Origin: a virus
Length of the DNA: 58,370 nt
IMG/VR virus record: IMGVR_UViG_3300042691_048764
Coordinates: 1-58,370 of that record
Reading direction: 5' to 3' (one strand)
How positions within the stretch are numbered: the stretch's first letter is position 1; the number at the start of each line of letters is the position of its first letter. Positions 4,948 through 42,835 of this stretch are shown here, in pieces. A program made the translations under genes and the position numbers. Under the pieces are notes generated by a model. The model was not told the origin of the DNA, searched no databases, and worked only from the letters and a program-made list of their open reading frames with translations.

Positions 4948-5022
4948 GCAGCGTTGGTCAAGGGGTTAAGACACCTCCCTTTCACGGAGGAATCACGGGT
5001 TCGAATCCCGTACGTTGTACCA
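4948..5022 (+). tRNA. tRNA-Glu(TTC)
   Basis: Cloverleaf with acceptor GCAGCGT/ACGTTGT (two G-U pairs). The anticodon stem CCTCC/GGAGG has loop CTTTCAC, giving anticodon TTC. The T-arm is ACGGG-TTCGAAT-CCCGT and the discriminator is A5019. CCA is encoded (5020-5022), unlike in the other tRNAs here. Confidence 0.93.
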
Positions 5023-5038
5023 CAATAAAACGATAAAC

Positions 5039-5362
5039 ATGACAAGTCTAGTTATTCTACAGCTTATCGTCTCGTTATCTGTCTTATGGGTTTGGCTCAT
5101 GAGACGTGAAGCGGTGATATCTGAATTCGAAAGGTTTGGATTATCCAAACAAACACTTACCACAGTTGGTGCAGCAAAGATACTTCTTTCTCTAATGATG
5201 ATGATTTCCATCTGGTTCCCAGTAATCTCAATTCCTTCCACTCTGGGTATGACGTATATGATGATTGCAGCTCAGTACTATCACATGCGTTTTGACTCTC
5301 CTCTAGATAAAAGATTACCTTCTTTGGTTCTCTTGCTAATGTGTATTTTAATTCTAGTGTAA
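5039..5362 (+). CDS. DoxX-like small membrane protein
   Basis: 107 aa. An upstream in-frame ATG at 5015 lies inside tRNA-Glu, so the ATG at 5039 is chosen. Four hydrophobic segments, at about residues 3-20, 43-62, 65-80 and 92-107, with GAAKILLSLMMMISIWFP and AAQYYHMRFDSPLDKRLPSLVLLL between them, fit the DoxX_2-like layout of four-helix inner-membrane proteins. In bacteria these are poorly understood and sometimes linked to redox or sulfur metabolism. It is wedged between tRNA-Glu and tRNA-Asp with almost no spacer, so it may be co-transcribed with the tRNAs. The role in the phage is unknown. Confidence 0.65.
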   Translation: MTSLVILQLIVSLSVLWVWLMRREAVISEFERFGLSKQTLTTVGAAKILLSLMMMISIWFPVISIPSTLGMTYMMIAAQYYHMRFDSPLDKRLPSLVLLLMCILILV

Positions 5363-5368
5363 TAAAAA

Positions 5369-5442
5369 GGATCGGTAGTTCAGTTGGTTAGAATGCTGCC
5401 CTGTCACGGCAGAGGTCGCGGGTTCGAGTCCCGTCCGGTCCG
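5369..5442 (+). tRNA. tRNA-Asp(GTC)
   Basis: Acceptor GGATCGG/CCGGTCC, anticodon stem CTGCC/GGCAG with loop CTGTCAC (anticodon GTC), T-loop TTCGAGT, discriminator G5442. No CCA is encoded. Confidence 0.93.
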
Positions 5443-5446
5443 CATA

Positions 5447-5546
5447 GGTGAGCGCGAAGACGAAAGGCAACACAGCGTGATTGTGCGCACAGTACGCTTA
5501 AGCACGAGTAGAAACAAGGGAGGATTAGCTACCCTCCCGCCTCACC
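5447..5546 (+). ncRNA. structured RNA candidate, tRNA-like outline
   Basis: The ends pair as GGTGAG/CTCACC and continue as GCG/CGC after one bulged C, giving a closing stem of 9 bp. A 6-bp stem GGGAGG/CCTCCC (5518-5523, 5533-5538) sits in the T-arm position, and GCGT/ACGC (5475-5478, 5494-5497) in the anticodon position. There is no TTCGA loop and no clear D-arm. It is GC-richer than the flanking genes. It could be a degenerate tRNA or a stable RNA like T4 species 1 and 2, which lie in the T4 tRNA cluster. Confidence 0.4.
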
Positions 5547-5555
5547 AAAAATAAA

Positions 5556-5689
5556 CCAGTCCGCAGGCCACTGGATCGAAACACAGAGAACGCCTCTCGG
5601 AATAGAGTTCACTCTTGCACAGGCGCACCAGTCTCTTCTCATCGTTTGGAGACAAAGTTGGCAACTCTTACATGTGGTTCAAAAGTTGC
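5556..5689 (+). other. non-coding stretch with four consecutive hairpins
   Basis: Four helices follow one another: CCAGT/ACTGG (5556-5574), CGCCT/AGGCG (5591-5625), GTCTC/GAGAC (5631-5653) and GCAACT/AGTTGC (5661-5689). No plus-strand ORF or standard tRNA was found. The density of hairpins suggests that the RNA itself matters, but I cannot name a family. Confidence 0.35.
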
Positions 5690-5694
5690 AAAAT

Positions 5695-5865
5695 AGTCAG
5701 GTGGCGAAAGGAGGGTGAAGTCCATCCTCGAGGTAGACGCAAATTGAGATAACAGAGCAGTGTGTCTGTCTTGGAGTGGACACATAATGCTACGCTGTGT
5801 TACACAGATTAACCAAGTGACGAGTGTATGCTCAATTTTTACAGGTTCGAATCCTGTCCTGGCTA
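5695..5865 (+). tRNA. tRNA-like gene with D-loop and anticodon-arm insertions
   Basis: 171 nt. Acceptor AGTCAGG (5695-5701) pairs fully with CCTGGCT (5858-5864) with one G-U pair. The T-arm ACAGG-TTCGAAT-CCTGT (5841-5857) is canonical and the discriminator is A5865. The D-stem is GCG (5704-5706) with CGC (5738-5740), and TGGCGAAAG plus GTAGACGC would make a normal Leu-like D-arm. About 22 nt (5711-5732, GAGG...CCTC hairpin) separate G18 from G19. The anticodon stem AAATTGAG/CTCAATTT (5741-5748, 5831-5838) encloses 82 nt with its own hairpins (TGTGTC/GACACA, CTGTG/CACAG). The anticodon cannot be assigned without knowing what is removed. Confidence 0.6.
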
Positions 5866-5991
5866 CTGAATCAGTTTGCCCGTGGGAACGGATACGTATC
5901 GGGGTTTTTGAACCCTGAGTATCTTCTGTAATCAAAATCCAATCACTGCTCACTGGTGTTTGGGCTAAATGTGAGAAAAAAACGGGAACAC
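5866..5991 (+). other. non-coding spacer with palindrome and hairpin
   Basis: This spacer holds the perfect palindrome GATACGTATC (5891-5900) and hairpin GGGTT/AACCC (5902-5906, 5911-5915). No gene was seen. The hexamer GATACG recurs in the structured segment at 6276-6281. Confidence 0.4.
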
Positions 5992-6062
5992 AGTGGCATG
6001 GTGTAACGGCAGCACTACAGATTTTGATTCTGTCTGTCCTGGTTCGAATCCAGGTGTCACGT
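5992..6062 (+). tRNA. tRNA-Gln(TTG)
   Basis: Anticodon stem ACAGA/TCTGT with loop TTTTGAT gives anticodon TTG. The D-stem is GTG/CAC, and the T-arm CCTGG-TTCGAAT-CCAGG is canonical. The acceptor pairs at positions 2-7, with an A-G mismatch at 1-72. A weak first pair is typical of tRNA-Gln, which supports the call. The expected discriminator G is not obvious (T6062). Confidence 0.85.
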
Positions 6063-6104
6063 CTAAATTTCTATTACCTAAAAATAGGTATATAGTCGGA
6101 AATT

Positions 6105-6178
6105 GGACCCTTAGCTCAGTTGGTTAGAGCATCTGACTCATAATCAGAGGGTCGCTGGTTCGAGCCCAGCAGGGTCCA
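6105..6178 (+). tRNA. tRNA with CAT anticodon (elongator Met or Ile2)
   Basis: Acceptor GGACCCT/AGGGTCC, anticodon stem TCTGA/TCAGA with loop CTCATAA, T-arm GCTGG/CCAGC, discriminator A6178. The body, especially the GGxCCCT acceptor and the GGTCGCTGG segment, looks closer to the Ile2 (AUA-reading, lysidine-modified) type than to E. coli elongator Met. Sequence alone does not settle this. Initiator features are absent. Confidence 0.9.
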
Positions 6179-6189
6179 CATCTTAAAAA

Positions 6190-6270
6190 GCGGAAGTAGC
6201 TCATTTGGTAGAGCGATAGCCTTCCAAGCTATAGGTGGCCGGTTCGAGCCCGGTCTTCCGGTCTTCCGCT
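6190..6270 (+). tRNA. tRNA-Gly(TCC) with duplicated 3' acceptor strand
   Basis: Acceptor 5' strand GCGGAAG, D-stem GCTC/GAGC, anticodon stem ATAGC/GCTAT with loop CTTCCAA (anticodon TCC), and T-arm GCCGG-TTCGAGC-CCGGT. The 3' acceptor strand occurs twice in tandem. CTTCCGG plus T (6255-6262) directly follows the T-stem but leaves G1 opposite G72. CTTCCGC plus T (6263-6270) pairs perfectly. Using the first copy, the tRNA ends at 6262. Confidence 0.88.
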
Positions 6271-6379
6271 CACCCGATACGTGAGTGAAAGCAAGCAGCG
6301 TATCTCTAGTTAGGGTCTTTCAGCCAGTGAACTAGGGTCCGAACGTCATTGTTCGGTGAGAGTACCAGGAAACCTCTCA
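6271..6379 (+). ncRNA. structured RNA candidate between tRNA-Gly and tRNA-Arg
   Basis: Perfect stems follow one another: GATACG/CGTATC (6276-6281, 6299-6304), CTAGTT/AACTAG (6306-6311, 6330-6335), CCGAAC/GTTCGG (6339-6344, 6351-6356) and TGAGAG/CTCTCA (6357-6362, 6374-6379). An alternative closing stem CTCACC/GGTGAG (6269-6274, 6355-6360) also exists. There is no ORF, and the stretch is GC-richer than the coding regions. The family was not recognised. Confidence 0.45.
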
Positions 6380-6383
6380 TTTT

Positions 6384-6482
6384 GGTCTCATAGTTCAATG
6401 GATAGAACGACTGCCTTCTCGGTCTATATTGAAAAGTATTACCGAGAAGCAGTGGATCCAAGTTCGATTCTTGGTGAGACTA
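6384..6482 (+). tRNA. tRNA-Arg with 27-nt insert in the anticodon loop
   Basis: Acceptor GGTCTCA/TGAGACT, D-arm GTTC/GAAC, anticodon stem ACTGC/GCAGT (6410-6414, 6449-6453), T-arm CCAAG-TTCGATT-CTTGG, discriminator A6482. The anticodon loop is 34 nt instead of 7. Removing 6420-6446 leaves CTTCTAA, the standard Arg(TCT) loop for AGA codons. Removing 6419-6445 leaves CTTCGAA, Arg(TCG). The insert plus neighbours forms a 7-bp perfect hairpin TCTCGGT/ACCGAGA. At 27 nt it is far too short for a group I or II intron. Confidence 0.85.
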
Positions 6483-6501
6483 CAAAAAAATAAAATAAAC
6501 C

Positions 6502-6576
6502 GCTCTCGTAGCCCAATTGGCAGGAGGCAATAGACTTAGGATCTATCCAGTGTCGGTTCGAATCCGACCGAGAGTA
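6502..6576 (+). tRNA. tRNA with TAG anticodon (Leu, short variable loop)
   Basis: Acceptor GCTCTCG/CGAGAGT, anticodon stem ATAGA/TCTAT with loop CTTAGGA (anticodon TAG, reading CUA), T-arm GTCGG-TTCGAAT-CCGAC, discriminator A6576. TAG and G37 fit Leu, but the variable loop is only 5 nt (CCAGT), whereas cellular bacterial tRNA-Leu has a long variable arm. Confidence 0.85.
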
Positions 6577-6594
6577 CAAAAATAAAAAAATCTT

Positions 6595-6853: not shown

Positions 6854-7312
6854 ATGGAAAAAACTTTTAAGACTTTAATCCGCTCAGAAGAGGTAGATCT
6901 TATACCCTATATTAAAGAGTATCTGGTAACCTATCCTGAAACTCAAATTCTTATTGGATGTGACTCTCAGAACCGCAGACATTATACAATATATGCGGTT
7001 GTGGTTGGTTTATATAGACCAGGTAAAGGAGCACACGTCCTTTATTCACGTTTTCACACAAATAGGGAGAAAGAGAATGTTGCTCGTTTAATCAACGAAG
7101 TCTGGCACTCCGTTGAAACTGCAGAGAGAATCAAAAGTGAGATTAACGTTAGAACAGAGTGGATTGATATTGATGTGAATCCAGATCCCAGATATGCCTC
7201 AAATCAGGCCTTGGCTTCTGCTGTTGGGATTGTAACTGGTATGGGATACAAGGTTAGACATAAGGGAGATTCTCCAGTTATGACCTATGCAGCTGATATG
7301 CTGGTGAAGTGA
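6854..7312 (+). CDS. YkuK-type RNase H-like protein
   Basis: 152 aa. The ATG at 6854 is chosen because the frame extended upstream overlaps the zinc-ribbon gene without support. ILIGCDSQ, TIYAVVVGLYRPGKGAHVLY, RFHTNREKENVARLINEVWHS and IDVNPDPRYASNQAL match the YkuK/DUF458 family, predicted to adopt an RNase H-like fold with acidic metal-binding residues (D in GCDSQ, E in NEVW, D in the IDVN region). The cellular function is not established. In a replication or RNA-processing setting it could act on RNA or hybrids. It sits directly after the tRNA island, which is suggestive but not proof of an RNA role. Confidence 0.75.
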   Translation: MEKTFKTLIRSEEVDLIPYIKEYLVTYPETQILIGCDSQNRRHYTIYAVVVGLYRPGKGAHVLYSRFHTNREKENVARLINEVWHSVETAERIKSEINVRTEWIDIDVNPDPRYASNQALASAVGIVTGMGYKVRHKGDSPVMTYAADMLVK

Positions 7313-7894: not shown

Positions 7895-8491
7895 ATGGCA
7901 TATAGACTACTTTTCAGAAGAGACACAGCAGCCAATTGGACCTCTAATAATCCTGTGCTGTCCGCAGGAGAACCTGGATTCGAAACGGATTCTGGAAAAT
8001 TAAAAATCGGAGATGGCACAACCACGTGGTCTAATTTAGATTACTATGGCGTGCAATTCACAACTCCGCAGGTTGAGCCTGCAATAGCAGGGTACACTGG
8101 AAGCACAAACAGCTCTAACTATCAAACACTTGCTATAGAGTTAGATCCCACTAATGATGTGATTTATATAGATACCACCGGATGGGACGGGAGCTCAAGC
8201 TATTTAAATTACTACTTGCCAGAATCTTCCATCGAAGGACATAAGATTGAGTTTGTTCTTAAAACTGGAGGAACGGGTCTTCCCTCTAATGCTAATAAAA
8301 TAAATGTTTGGTTAGACACTCTCAGGGATCCATCTAGATACGGGTCAACTGGTGCAACTGGCTCCACTGGAGCTAGCTCTGCCTGGTACCCATTCTCAAG
8401 ATTTGATAGCACCACCACATGGAGACCGGATAATCCTAAGGGAATCTGGCTGGATGGCTATTGGACCATAGACAATGGCCAATGGGGATAA
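7895..8491 (+). CDS. tail fibre-type protein with Mtd-like N-terminal domain
   Basis: 198 aa. Residues 1-52 ([40 protein letters not shown]) match the N-terminal domain first defined in the Bordetella phage major tropism determinant, a trimerisation and attachment module common at the start of tail fibres. A beta-rich part follows, then a short Gly-Ser-Thr linker (TGATGSTGASS, about 150-160) and a short C-terminal module rich in Trp. It probably sits at the tail tip or on the capsid surface. The next gene is a longer paralogue with the same N-terminus. Confidence 0.75.
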   Translation: MAYRLLFRRDTAANWTSNNPVLSAGEPGFETDSGKLKIGDGTTTWSNLDYYGVQFTTPQVEPAIAGYTGSTNSSNYQTLAIELDPTNDVIYIDTTGWDGSSSYLNYYLPESSIEGHKIEFVLKTGGTGLPSNANKINVWLDTLRDPSRYGSTGATGSTGASSAWYPFSRFDSTTTWRPDNPKGIWLDGYWTIDNGQWG

Positions 8492-8509: not shown

Positions 8510-9538
8510 ATGCCACAAAGAATACTGCTAAGAAGAGACACCTCAATAAACTGGGAATACAATAATCCAGTTTTAATGCTAGGTGAACCTGGAGTTGAAA
8601 CCGATACCGGAAAGCTCAAAATCGGAGACGGGCAGTCTCCCTGGACAGATTTGTCTTATTTGGAAGGACCTGTAGGGGCTACCGGAGCAACTGGATCTGA
8701 TGGGATTTCTGTAACTGGACCAACAGGGAGTGCAGGACCCGCTGGTGCTACTGGTCCAACTGGATCCGGCTCTATAGGAGCTACCGGGCCAACAGGAAGT
8801 TCTGGACCCACTGGTGCTACTGGTCCAACTGGATCCGGCTCTATAGGAGCTACCGGGCCAACAGGAAGTTCTGGACCCACTGGTGCTACTGGAGAAAGAG
8901 GATCAACCGGAGCATCTGGGGGTTCGACCCTACCCGTTATAAACACGGCCGTTAATTTATCAGGGTCGAATCGACCCTTGCAGGGAGCAGGAATTTATAG
9001 GGTAACAGCATTTGGGAATTCTTTTGAATTTAATAAAACAGGTATAGCAAATGGCAGTAGGGTTATATTAATAAATAGCAACGTGTCTTATGTAGACACC
9101 GTGCCAGTTATTGGTGACGGGGTTTCTGTTTTGTATCAAGGAACCCAAGTGCCAGTAACACAAATACCTTCAGGAATGGCCTTTGATTTTATCTATACTA
9201 CAAATGAGGATACTTGGTATTGCTTAAATCCCCTACCTCAAATTTGTCCAGCAAAGATAGACTTAGATGTCTACAATGCTAATTATCTTATAAACACCCC
9301 AGGTTTATTTGCTTTTGAAAATAATAGTAATTCTTTTGAAATAATTTTGCCAGATCCCACTAAATTTAGGGGATTGCAGATAGTTATCTGGAATCAATAT
9401 TCTAGTTCTATTTCTTATGGATCGTCTTATGTCCCATTAAATCCCGACATTTCTAATAAAGGCTCCATCTTGGGTAGAAGCATCGACACACTTGTCTCTA
9501 TGGATGGTAACTGGACAGTTGTAAATAGTTATTCGTAA
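8510..9538 (+). CDS. collagen-like fibre protein with Mtd-like N-terminal domain
   Basis: 342 aa. Residues 1-50 repeat the Mtd-type module ([27 protein letters not shown]). Residues about 55-140 are Gly-X-Y collagen-like repeats ([13 protein letters not shown]), expected to form a trimeric stalk. The C-terminal 200 residues form a beta-rich, Asn/Ser-rich globular part, presumably the binding tip. Collagen-like stalks are widespread in phage fibres. The stalk DNA contains two exact 69-bp repeats, so length variation by recombination is likely. It is co-oriented with the shorter paralogue 18 bp upstream. Confidence 0.78.
8744..8881 (+). repeat. two identical 69-bp tandem repeats in the collagen-like stalk
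   Basis: Copies at 8744-8812 and 8813-8881 are identical base for base. A third copy starts at 8882 but diverges after about 13 bases. Each unit codes for 23 residues of Gly-X-Y type. Confidence 0.93.
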
Positions 9539-39808: not shown

Positions 39809-41278
39809 TTGAGAAAAAGACAATCCCCGTTAGATCCTATTGTAGAGAGAGTTGATCAATCCCCAAGACAGAAAACTAGTGCTGTGAATTTAGCTAATAG
39901 CACCGTTCCTGGACTTCAAAATATACCAGCAAACTATTTTGAACCTAACACCATAGGCGCTGGTTTAAATGGAACAGGCCTACTCAAATCTAGACCTAAT
40001 ATCGTTCAAAATTACACAGGAGGTACCACATTTAAGGGTAATCCTCTTCTGGTAAATCCTCAAAGATTCTTTTATTTTTTTATAGAGTATAATAATTCAA
40101 ATGAGAAAGGAATAGGTAGTTTACTTAAATCTTTCTCTATAATTAAGATGCTGAATGATACAGATCTTAAAACATTTTCCGAACTCTTAGGTAGTGCTCC
40201 TAAAAGCATTACCCCTATATCAGAGGAAACGTATAATACCGGATCGTTCAGTCATCCAAAATATATCAACGATAACGGAACCCCTTTGGTCATAAAGTAC
40301 AAAGAAATCCAGTTAGTTAATCAGGTCACACCAGGAAGATTAGATGATGCTTATATAGGATATCCTGATTTTGGAAGAACCCCAGACACAGTTATAGGCA
40401 CTTTCAGTCCCTTACCAGGAGCACCATATACAACATTTACTGCCTTAGGTGCTACTGCTACCATTACAGTTTCTGCTGGTGGAACTGTTGCCTTTAAGGA
40501 TTTAACTCCTAAAACACCTTGGCAAACAGCTCCAACTGGTTGGAATTGGTCATTCGGGTCATTTGCAAGCCCCACGGGAAGCACTGCAGAAAATCCTATA
40601 ATTACTTATGGAGCTACTACCTCAATAATATGGGACGAATCACAGAATGTGACTTTAACTACTTCTAATAATTATGGCTCTACCTCTTTAACTAAAAGTA
40701 ATTTCGTAATAATCACTTCTAATAACTCAGTGACTATAGGAACACAAAAATGGTCACTTTATAATTTAGATGTAACTACTTATAGAAACGGAGACACTAT
40801 ACCTCAGGTAACAGACACTGCTGCTTGGGCGGGGTTAACCTCTGGTGCTTGGTGTTATTATAATAATGATTCGTCCAATGGGAACACGTACGGTAAGCTT
40901 TATAATTGGTTTGCTGTTAACGATTCACGGGGTTTAGCCCCTGAAGGATGGCACATACCGACGGACTCAGAATGGACAACTTTAATTACGTATCTAGGTG
41001 GAACTTCCGTTGCGGGTGGAGCAATAAAAACAACGACTGGATGGAATAGTCCAAATACCGGGGCAACTAATAGTAGTGGATTCACAGGTCTTCCTGGAGG
41101 GTATAGATTATTTGATGGATCTTTTCTTTCTATCCAATCTGCAGGAATATGGTGGGCATCAAATCAAAGCAGTTCTACTAATTCATATTTTGTCCAAGCA
41201 AGTTCAAGTAATGCTTCATTGTTATCGTCTAATTACGATAAAAACGGAGGATTATCTATTAGATTAATCAAAGACTAA
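39809..41278 (+). CDS. fibre-like protein with PKD-like and FISUMP domains
   Basis: 489 aa from a TTG start preceded by AAAGGAAA. Residues 1-190 are unrecognised and may attach it to the virion. About 210-305 is PKD-like (WNWSFGSF, ENPIITY, TLTTSNNYGS). About 310-489 is a FISUMP domain (GTQKWSLYNLDV, GKLYNWFAVND, GLAPEGWHIPTDSEWTTL, WWASNQ, GLSIRLIKD), a C-type-lectin-like fold common in Bacteroidota and Fibrobacter. It probably binds a surface glycan. It lies directly upstream of the gp15-like gene. Confidence 0.75.
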   Translation: MRKRQSPLDPIVERVDQSPRQKTSAVNLANSTVPGLQNIPANYFEPNTIGAGLNGTGLLKSRPNIVQNYTGGTTFKGNPLLVNPQRFFYFFIEYNNSNEKGIGSLLKSFSIIKMLNDTDLKTFSELLGSAPKSITPISEETYNTGSFSHPKYINDNGTPLVIKYKEIQLVNQVTPGRLDDAYIGYPDFGRTPDTVIGTFSPLPGAPYTTFTALGATATITVSAGGTVAFKDLTPKTPWQTAPTGWNWSFGSFASPTGSTAENPIITYGATTSIIWDESQNVTLTTSNNYGSTSLTKSNFVIITSNNSVTIGTQKWSLYNLDVTTYRNGDTIPQVTDTAAWAGLTSGAWCYYNNDSSNGNTYGKLYNWFAVNDSRGLAPEGWHIPTDSEWTTLITYLGGTSVAGGAIKTTTGWNSPNTGATNSSGFTGLPGGYRLFDGSFLSIQSAGIWWASNQSSSTNSYFVQASSSNASLLSSNYDKNGGLSIRLIKD

Positions 41279-42358: not shown

Positions 42359-42835
42359 ATGGCTTTTAGAATACAAATAAGAAGAGACACAGCATCCAAA
42401 TGGTCTGTTAATAATCCAATACTATTGGAGGGTGAACTTGGTTATACTACAGACACAAAGTTGATGAAAGTAGGAGACGGAACAACTGAGTGGAACGATC
42501 TAGACTATTGGAACGGATCTGCTTATTCATCTTATGTTGCTCTTTTAACCCAAACAGGAACAAATGCTCCGGTAGCCACAATTTTAGAAAATGGTATAGG
42601 CGATCTAATTTGGACTAGAAGTGCTACTGGCTCTTATCGTGCAGGTCTAACTGGGGCTTTCACCTCAGGAAAAACAGCTTTATTTACTAGTAACACTGCA
42701 AACACTGTGAAGGGAGACGTTTACATTTATCCCACCGGAGATCAAAATTCAATCAGTATTCAAACCTGTGCTGCTGGGGTTACTGCAGATGGAGTTCTAG
42801 GAAGCACTGCTGTTGAAATAAGAGTTTATCTTTAA
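42359..42835 (+). CDS. short fibre-type protein with Mtd-like N-terminal domain
   Basis: 158 aa. IQIRRDTASKW, NNPILLEGELGYTTDTKLMKVGDGTTEWNDLDYW (residues 4-52) is the third Mtd-type N-terminal module in the window. The rest is a beta-rich, Gly/Thr/Ala-rich part that could be a small trimeric tip. It sits within the tail module rather than with the two other copies at 7.9-9.5 kb. Confidence 0.75.
   Translation: MAFRIQIRRDTASKWSVNNPILLEGELGYTTDTKLMKVGDGTTEWNDLDYWNGSAYSSYVALLTQTGTNAPVATILENGIGDLIWTRSATGSYRAGLTGAFTSGKTALFTSNTANTVKGDVYIYPTGDQNSISIQTCAAGVTADGVLGSTAVEIRVYL

Follow-up and report, generated by a model that had tools for sequence, protein, structure and literature searches.

A tRNA-Arg(UCU) gene of a T4-like phage carries a 27-nt hairpin in its anticodon loop, between nucleotides 36 and 37 of an otherwise intact tRNA. 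The reading that we favour, at a probability of about 35%, is that the hairpin was recently inserted into a working tRNA gene and acts as a small intervening sequence, which would be excised by an RNase and the exons sealed by a phage ligase. Small introns in tRNAs are seen as a feature of archaea and eukaryotes, with bacteria credited only with group I tRNA introns (PMC4090602), and a literature search, with subscription journals and most bioRxiv preprints outside its reach, yielded no description of short phage tRNA introns that are not self-splicing. The gene raises the possibility of small tRNA introns being spliced in phages without a known splicing enzyme. If true, either ordinary RNases would make up a splicing route together with a phage RNA ligase, or unspliced tRNAs would be put to a new use, and phage RNA ligases would gain a housekeeping role beyond damage repair.

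An interrupted tRNA gene with intact arms

The gene (99 nt) lies at 6384–6482 on the plus strand of a 58,370-base IMG/VR virus record (35% G+C), the whole of which we refer to as the window; tail sheath, terminase and UvsX genes identify the phage as T4-like and contractile-tailed. It belongs to a tRNA array (4948–6577, plus strand) comprising Glu, Asp, Gln, Met, Gly, the interrupted Arg and Leu(TAG). ARAGORN recovered six of these from the window and made no call for the interrupted tRNA at 6384–6482, which was detected by Rfam only; standard tRNA finders miss such interrupted genes. The match to the Rfam tRNA model (RF00005) scores 56.2 bits (gathering score 29) and leaves 30 consecutive nt of the anticodon loop unaligned. 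A structural scan found all pairs formed in the acceptor (7/7), D (4/4), anticodon (5/5) and T (5/5) stems and an anticodon loop of 34 nt, in agreement with a preliminary description of this DNA that had reported intact arms and a loop of that length. The feature is confirmed as real, with exact coordinates.

The insert (CGGTCTATATTGAAAAGTATTACCGAG) occupies 6420–6446, and its removal leaves exactly CTTCTAA, the Arg(TCT) loop that the preliminary description had predicted from this deletion. Aligned to an uninterrupted gene in another phage record (L313, 11903–11974), the 5′ exon spans 6384–6419 (nucleotides 1–36) and ends with the anticodon TCT at 6417–6419, and the 3′ exon spans 6447–6482 (nucleotides 37–73: A37 and A38, anticodon stem, variable loop, T arm, acceptor and A73). 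An Rfam search of the window returned no intron match, group I included, and at 27 nt the insert is, as already proposed, too short for a self-splicing intron of that type. AGA was likewise rightly named as the favoured arginine codon, at 308 of 452 (68%) in 32 open reading frames of the window.

Uninterrupted counterparts and the age of the insert

A pattern scan of IMG/VR with the first part of this tRNA yielded 26 stretches, among which L307, L311, L313 and L323 (records of 33–181 kb) hold the same tRNA-Arg without the insert, identical at 70 of 72 bases outside it. The L313 gene lies, as in the window, directly upstream of a gene for an RNase H-like protein (PF04308, phrog_11311; window 6854–7312, plus strand, downstream of the array; L313 12005–12466), the two genes being about 67% identical and their products 65% identical in amino acids. 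Given this uninterrupted syntenic counterpart and its 70/72 identity, the 27-nt hairpin is an insertion that separates nucleotides 36 and 37 of a tRNA-Arg(UCU). The alignment permits only one junction (..CTTCT/AAGCAG..), and thus fixes the anticodon as TCT and excludes the register, shifted by one base, that would have given Arg(TCG). Both differences between the window and L313 genes fall at unpaired positions, so no arm has decayed; the base before ACTGC is G in the window phage and A in L313. Random decay in relatives, named beforehand as an observation that would count against a working gene, was unseen in these relatives, which carry uninterrupted, intact copies.

The window and L313 genes for tRNA-Arg are 97% identical, compared with 76–85% for their Glu, Gln and Met genes, 64–72% for the best matches of the window Asp, Gly and Leu tRNAs, and 55–78% between the window tRNA-Arg and the tRNA-Arg genes of the other phages compared. 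In L300, the RNase H-like gene is closer to that of the window (72% amino-acid identity), yet the tRNA-Arg is only 75% identical. As only the tRNA-Arg is so similar in the window–L313 pair, the gene was probably exchanged recently between phages, and the insert is probably younger still. For the same reason we dropped the 97% identity as proof of selection, and since the insertion looks recent, conservation of the arms is weak evidence of function and no proof of it.

A dead gene is therefore as likely an explanation as splicing. By this account a lytic phage rich in tRNAs recently acquired the hairpin by a mutational accident, the arms are perfect for want of time to decay, and the unspliced RNA is neither charged nor decoding. 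In addition to the identities above, this account is favoured by the frequency of decayed tRNA-like genes in related phages and by our finding no second phage with the same insert among the matches listed in the IMG/VR pattern scans. There, an Arg(TCT)-with-insert pattern gave 59 matches, none of them a tRNA, a tighter pattern gave three matches, all protein-coding, and the inverted-repeat pattern TTCTCGG..CCGAGAA gave chance matches only among those listed. With up to three mismatches allowed, 27 records of related phages contained neither the insert nor a repeat that could be its source. Across 84,980 species genomes, a stricter Arg(TCT) pattern failed to turn up a canonical tRNA-Arg(TCT) with an interruption. 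Alphaproteobacterial and other proteobacterial genomes did contain tRNA-like genes in which a TTTCTA loop is combined with a long insert (L468, L470, L476 and L471).

A hairpin in register with the anticodon

In the predicted fold of the anticodon arm, an 8-bp helix is formed by a 5′ arm at 6416–6423 (TTCTCGGT; U33, the anticodon and insert nucleotides 1–4) and a 3′ arm at 6441–6448 (ACCGAGAA; insert nucleotides 22–27, A37 and A38), both on the plus strand, and is topped by an apical 5-bp hairpin with a GAAA loop (ATATT-GAAA-AGTAT, 6426–6439, plus strand). The preliminary description had recognized the helix (TCTCGGT/ACCGAGA) and its pairing with the anticodon but gave its length as 7 bp. The whole extended stem is short, its 18 bp being broken by a bulge and an internal loop, which weighs against the excision that we favour. 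The cloverleaf with this extended arm folds at −37.3 kcal/mol, compared with a minimum of −37.7 (a gap of 0.4). At −20.6 kcal/mol, the insert-bearing arm was equalled by one of 3,000 shuffled inserts, and 218 of 20,000 shuffles paired over 8 bp or more at the junction. The hairpin in register with the anticodon is not due to chance, and the rarity of one this good among random 27-nt inserts argues against an accidental, dead gene.

The two junctions are staggered: the last base pair of the tRNA body is U34–A37, and cuts at both junctions would leave 2-nt 3′ overhangs of C35 U36 on the body and AG on the insert. A 2-nt 3′ overhang is the geometry of RNase III products, and we estimate that this offset would occur by accident roughly one time in six. 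The stem is closed by flanking sequence, as in RNase III-type intervening sequences, with the 8-bp helix spanning both junctions; the offset fits the overhang of that type, and the tRNA-Arg(UCU) has all arms paired and, after excision, a normal loop, as a functional tRNA would require. A check for a bulge-helix-bulge, suggested in the preliminary description, found none, because both junctions sit within one continuous helix. The element is neither a bulge-helix-bulge nor a group I intron, and would work like a tRNA intervening sequence should excision occur.

The insert might instead be retained in the mature RNA, the tRNA then serving as a scaffold for display of the hairpin or, with its anticodon hidden from anticodon nucleases, as a decoy or store; we consider this improbable. 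The anticodon is indeed fully base-paired in the precursor fold, and phage tRNAs are thought to evolve nuclease-insensitive anticodon loops (PMC10264068), but the cases of nuclease evasion described there are base substitutions, with no mention of an insertion or intron. Many phage tRNA-like RNAs also have a replaced anticodon arm (at least 6 of 7 acceptor pairs in 88 of 125 among the matches listed). YrlA Y RNAs and other tRNA-like phage RNAs similarly combine a tRNA body with a foreign anticodon arm. Unlike in these RNAs, the anticodon stem and loop ends of the window gene are canonical and excision gives an exactly normal loop, and the window contains no YrlA match.

Interrupted tRNAs in other phages

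Among the matches listed in an IMG/VR scan for type-I tRNAs with 44–74 nt between the D and T arms, and in related contigs, a strict scanner found at least 13 tRNAs, that of the window included, with a whole cloverleaf and an insert in the anticodon loop. Arm pairs were formed at 271 of 273 positions across 13 interrupted tRNAs, compared with 1,811 of 1,848 in normal tRNAs of the same contigs, and the same scan of shuffled sequence yielded no interrupted tRNA; the apparent intactness is biased upward, since an anticodon stem was a search requirement, as were, in part, the acceptor, D and T arms. The loops begin with CT in all 13 and end with AA or AAAT in 12. Acceptor pairing was 90 of 91, under a scan that required at least 6 of 7 pairs, and, with that bias, the recurrence of such genes in unrelated phages weighs against a dead gene in the window. 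Because interrupted phage tRNAs with intact arms recur, special biology is more plausible than a one-off accident.

The inserts were of several kinds. Simple hairpins occur in the window tRNA-Arg and in a tRNA-Lys(UUU) of L382, which is the best analogue; its offset at the same junction would be 3 nt, so the RNase III geometry does not generalize. Acceptor/T-arm minihelices interrupt a tRNA-Ile(GAU) in L381 and a tRNA in L345, the loop of which reads Ile(UAU) once an element ending in TCCA is removed. In L381 the same minihelix is present in two tRNA genes about 1 kb apart (7011–7132 and about 6100–6240, minus strand), the second copy being in a degenerate tRNA at 87% identity with a paired change in the T stem. 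A GIY-YIG homing endonuclease gene lies between these two insert-bearing tRNAs and two further homing endonucleases are nearby. Complete tRNAs can also serve as inserts: a tRNA-Gly(UCC) with its CCA lies inside the anticodon loop of a tRNA-Asn (CTGT/..TCCA/TAA; L392 2123–2272, L460 2733–2882), and a 76-nt tRNA-Phe inside that of a tRNA-Arg(UCU) (CTT/../CTAA; L344 4972–5123). Whole-tRNA or minihelix inserts in L392, L344, L345 and L459 have CCA at the exon border. The tRNA-Gly(UCC) inside tRNA-Asn is the sole tRNA-Gly found in the L392 stretch.

One 236-kb phage (L355/L458) contains four interrupted tRNAs with inserts of about 78–84 nt (L458 518–680, 2165–2319, 3299–3453 and 8813–8964). The 33/34 position of the insert in its Arg gene follows from comparison with uninterrupted homologues of a 635-kb phage and of Sinorhizobium phage ort11; beyond this gene and that of the window, junctions were inferred from normal loops only. 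The array of this phage otherwise lacks Thr, Lys and Arg, and also holds genes for an RNA ligase, an HNH endonuclease and an IS605 TnpB-like protein. Two sets of candidates were rejected: L410, which is actually two tandem normal tRNAs, and over-long matches in G034 and G022, which are tRNA-like or degenerate genes and not clean inserts.

An artefact of assembly or amplification, in which a chimeric hairpin was joined into the contig, is very improbable for the window gene: the insert is known from a single metagenomic contig and no second assembly with it was found, but such hairpins are copied from adjacent sequence, 23 of the 27 inserted bases do not represent an inverted copy of the flank, and comparable inserts occur in contigs of other metagenomes.

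Ligases, nucleases and a model of excision

Related phages were collected via their AAA protease and terminase. Of 15 records, from related phages or included for comparison, 8 encode a T4 Rnl1-type RNA ligase (PF09511), a raw count. It is present in the 181-kb record that carries the uninterrupted tRNA-Arg and in a 348-kb record with a 79%-identical protease, where the ligase gene (protein L333, motif KMDG) stands beside a metallophosphoesterase gene. None was seen within the 58-kb window, which is an incomplete phage; we infer that this phage has one. Another ligase family, PF09414, also matches in Escherichia coli and Bacillus subtilis. Among the records with interrupted tRNAs, an ATP-grasp RNA ligase is encoded in four of the larger ones (L355, where it lies within the tRNA array, L392, L432 and L393), again a raw count, and was not seen in four shorter records (10–59 kb); RtcB was found in none of them and was absent from all 15 related or comparison records. 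In 11 related phages, neither a tRNA splicing endonuclease (tRNA_int_endo, best score 11.8 bits) nor a PNKP-type HAD domain (HAD_PNKP) scored above cut-off, so that the premise of a missing splicing endonuclease, made at the outset, holds for these relatives. A protein-spliced intron of the archaeal and eukaryotic type, with a bulge-helix-bulge and a tRNA endonuclease, is thus the most remote explanation: the insert adjoins the anticodon and is of similar size, but the hallmark bulge-helix-bulge and usual 37/38 position of archaeal introns (PMC4090602) contrast with a 36/37 junction and one bulge-free helix holding both junctions, and in the related phages searched the endonuclease matches are below cut-off and RtcB is absent.

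RNase III and RNase P leave 5′-phosphate and 3′-OH ends. These are the ends that ATP-grasp RNA ligases require (PMC7824862), and which anticodon nucleases such as PrrC do not leave (PMC3400036). In the excision and ligation that we favour, the insert and anticodon of the transcript would form one long stem under the GAAA loop, which a double-strand RNase of the housekeeping kind, most probably RNase III of the host, would cut at both junctions. The body would keep C35 U36 and the excised hairpin AG, with 3′-OH and 5′-phosphate ends that a T4-type (ATP-grasp) ligase of the phage could join directly, restoring the loop CUUCUAA and an AGA-reading tRNA. The joined exons of this phage would read ..GAACGACTGCCTTCTAAGCAGTGG... 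RNase III is known to excise stem-loop intervening sequences from 23S rRNA (PMC4990558), and phage ligases to rejoin broken anticodon loops (PMC3400036); that the two combine as tRNA splicing is our proposal. The three readings offered in the preliminary description (small-intron splicing, a shield against nucleases, or a dead gene) are partly supported: their premises hold and decay in relatives was unseen, and there is no bulge-helix-bulge.

For tRNA-like inserts, RNase P and 3′ processing could perform the excision with the same end chemistry. A phage class of small tRNA introns, comprising hairpins, acceptor/T-arm minihelices and complete tRNAs that housekeeping RNases (RNase III, RNase P and 3′-end nucleases) would cut out and a phage RNA ligase would seal, is a tentative and on balance unlikely generalization. 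Such inserts may go back to anticodon loops that anticodon nucleases had broken and into which this ligase joined foreign RNA, the product then being reverse-transcribed. This route of intron gain has been discussed for eukaryotes (PMC4090602), and, if it holds here, would become directly testable in phages.

Comparison with known systems

Several known systems resemble the window gene in part. Like protein-spliced tRNA introns of archaea and eukaryotes, it has a short insert by the anticodon, which pairs with it, in an otherwise intact tRNA; unlike them, it is interrupted at 36/37 with no bulge-helix-bulge, and it belongs to a bacterial phage, with no endonuclease found in 11 relatives. Group I introns of bacterial tRNAs share the anticodon-loop site and the bacterial setting, whereas the phage insert, at 27 nt and with no Rfam intron match, lacks a catalytic core (about 200 nt or more). 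The 23S rRNA intervening sequences excised by RNase III are likewise stem-loops inserted sporadically in a structured RNA, and a cut by RNase III is what we propose here. However, rRNA fragments work unjoined (PMC4990558) whereas a tRNA needs ligation, and the phage insert is much smaller, its cleavage being predicted. In the repair of tRNA-Lys by T4 Rnl1 (with Pnkp), a phage ligase rejoins an anticodon loop, and relatives of the window phage encode a ligase of this type; T4, in contrast, mends a cut made by host PrrC in a host tRNA with no intron, and here the ligase would finish an excision.

Other RNAs and genes

Several further features were observed. Families of tRNA-like RNAs in which the acceptor, D and T arms are intact and the anticodon arm is replaced were seen in L335–L454, with recurring motifs that include ACAGCAA and CTCAAGGTGAAGGGCC. 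A tRNA-like RNA whose unusual body (TATACCCTYCGCCTGATACGCG..) is conserved and whose acceptor covaries is shared by two related phages (L288 7049–7125 and L293 8895–8971). L293 also has a predicted ochre suppressor-type tRNA with anticodon TTA (8773–8846), and in another related phage a GOLLD RNA adjoins a tmRNA (L008 14867–16012). The window itself has a possible 170-nt tRNA-like RNA at 5695–5870, with paired ends (AGTCAGG/CCTGGCT), a T arm and an overall fold z-score of only −1.5; similar ends are found in L289 and L290. Three window proteins (7895–8491, 8510–9538 and 42359–42835) have a tail-fibre domain in common at their N terminus, with an Mtd_N match in the first. Lastly, a Fib_succ_major domain at 39809–41278 hints at a host from the Bacteroidota or Fibrobacterota.
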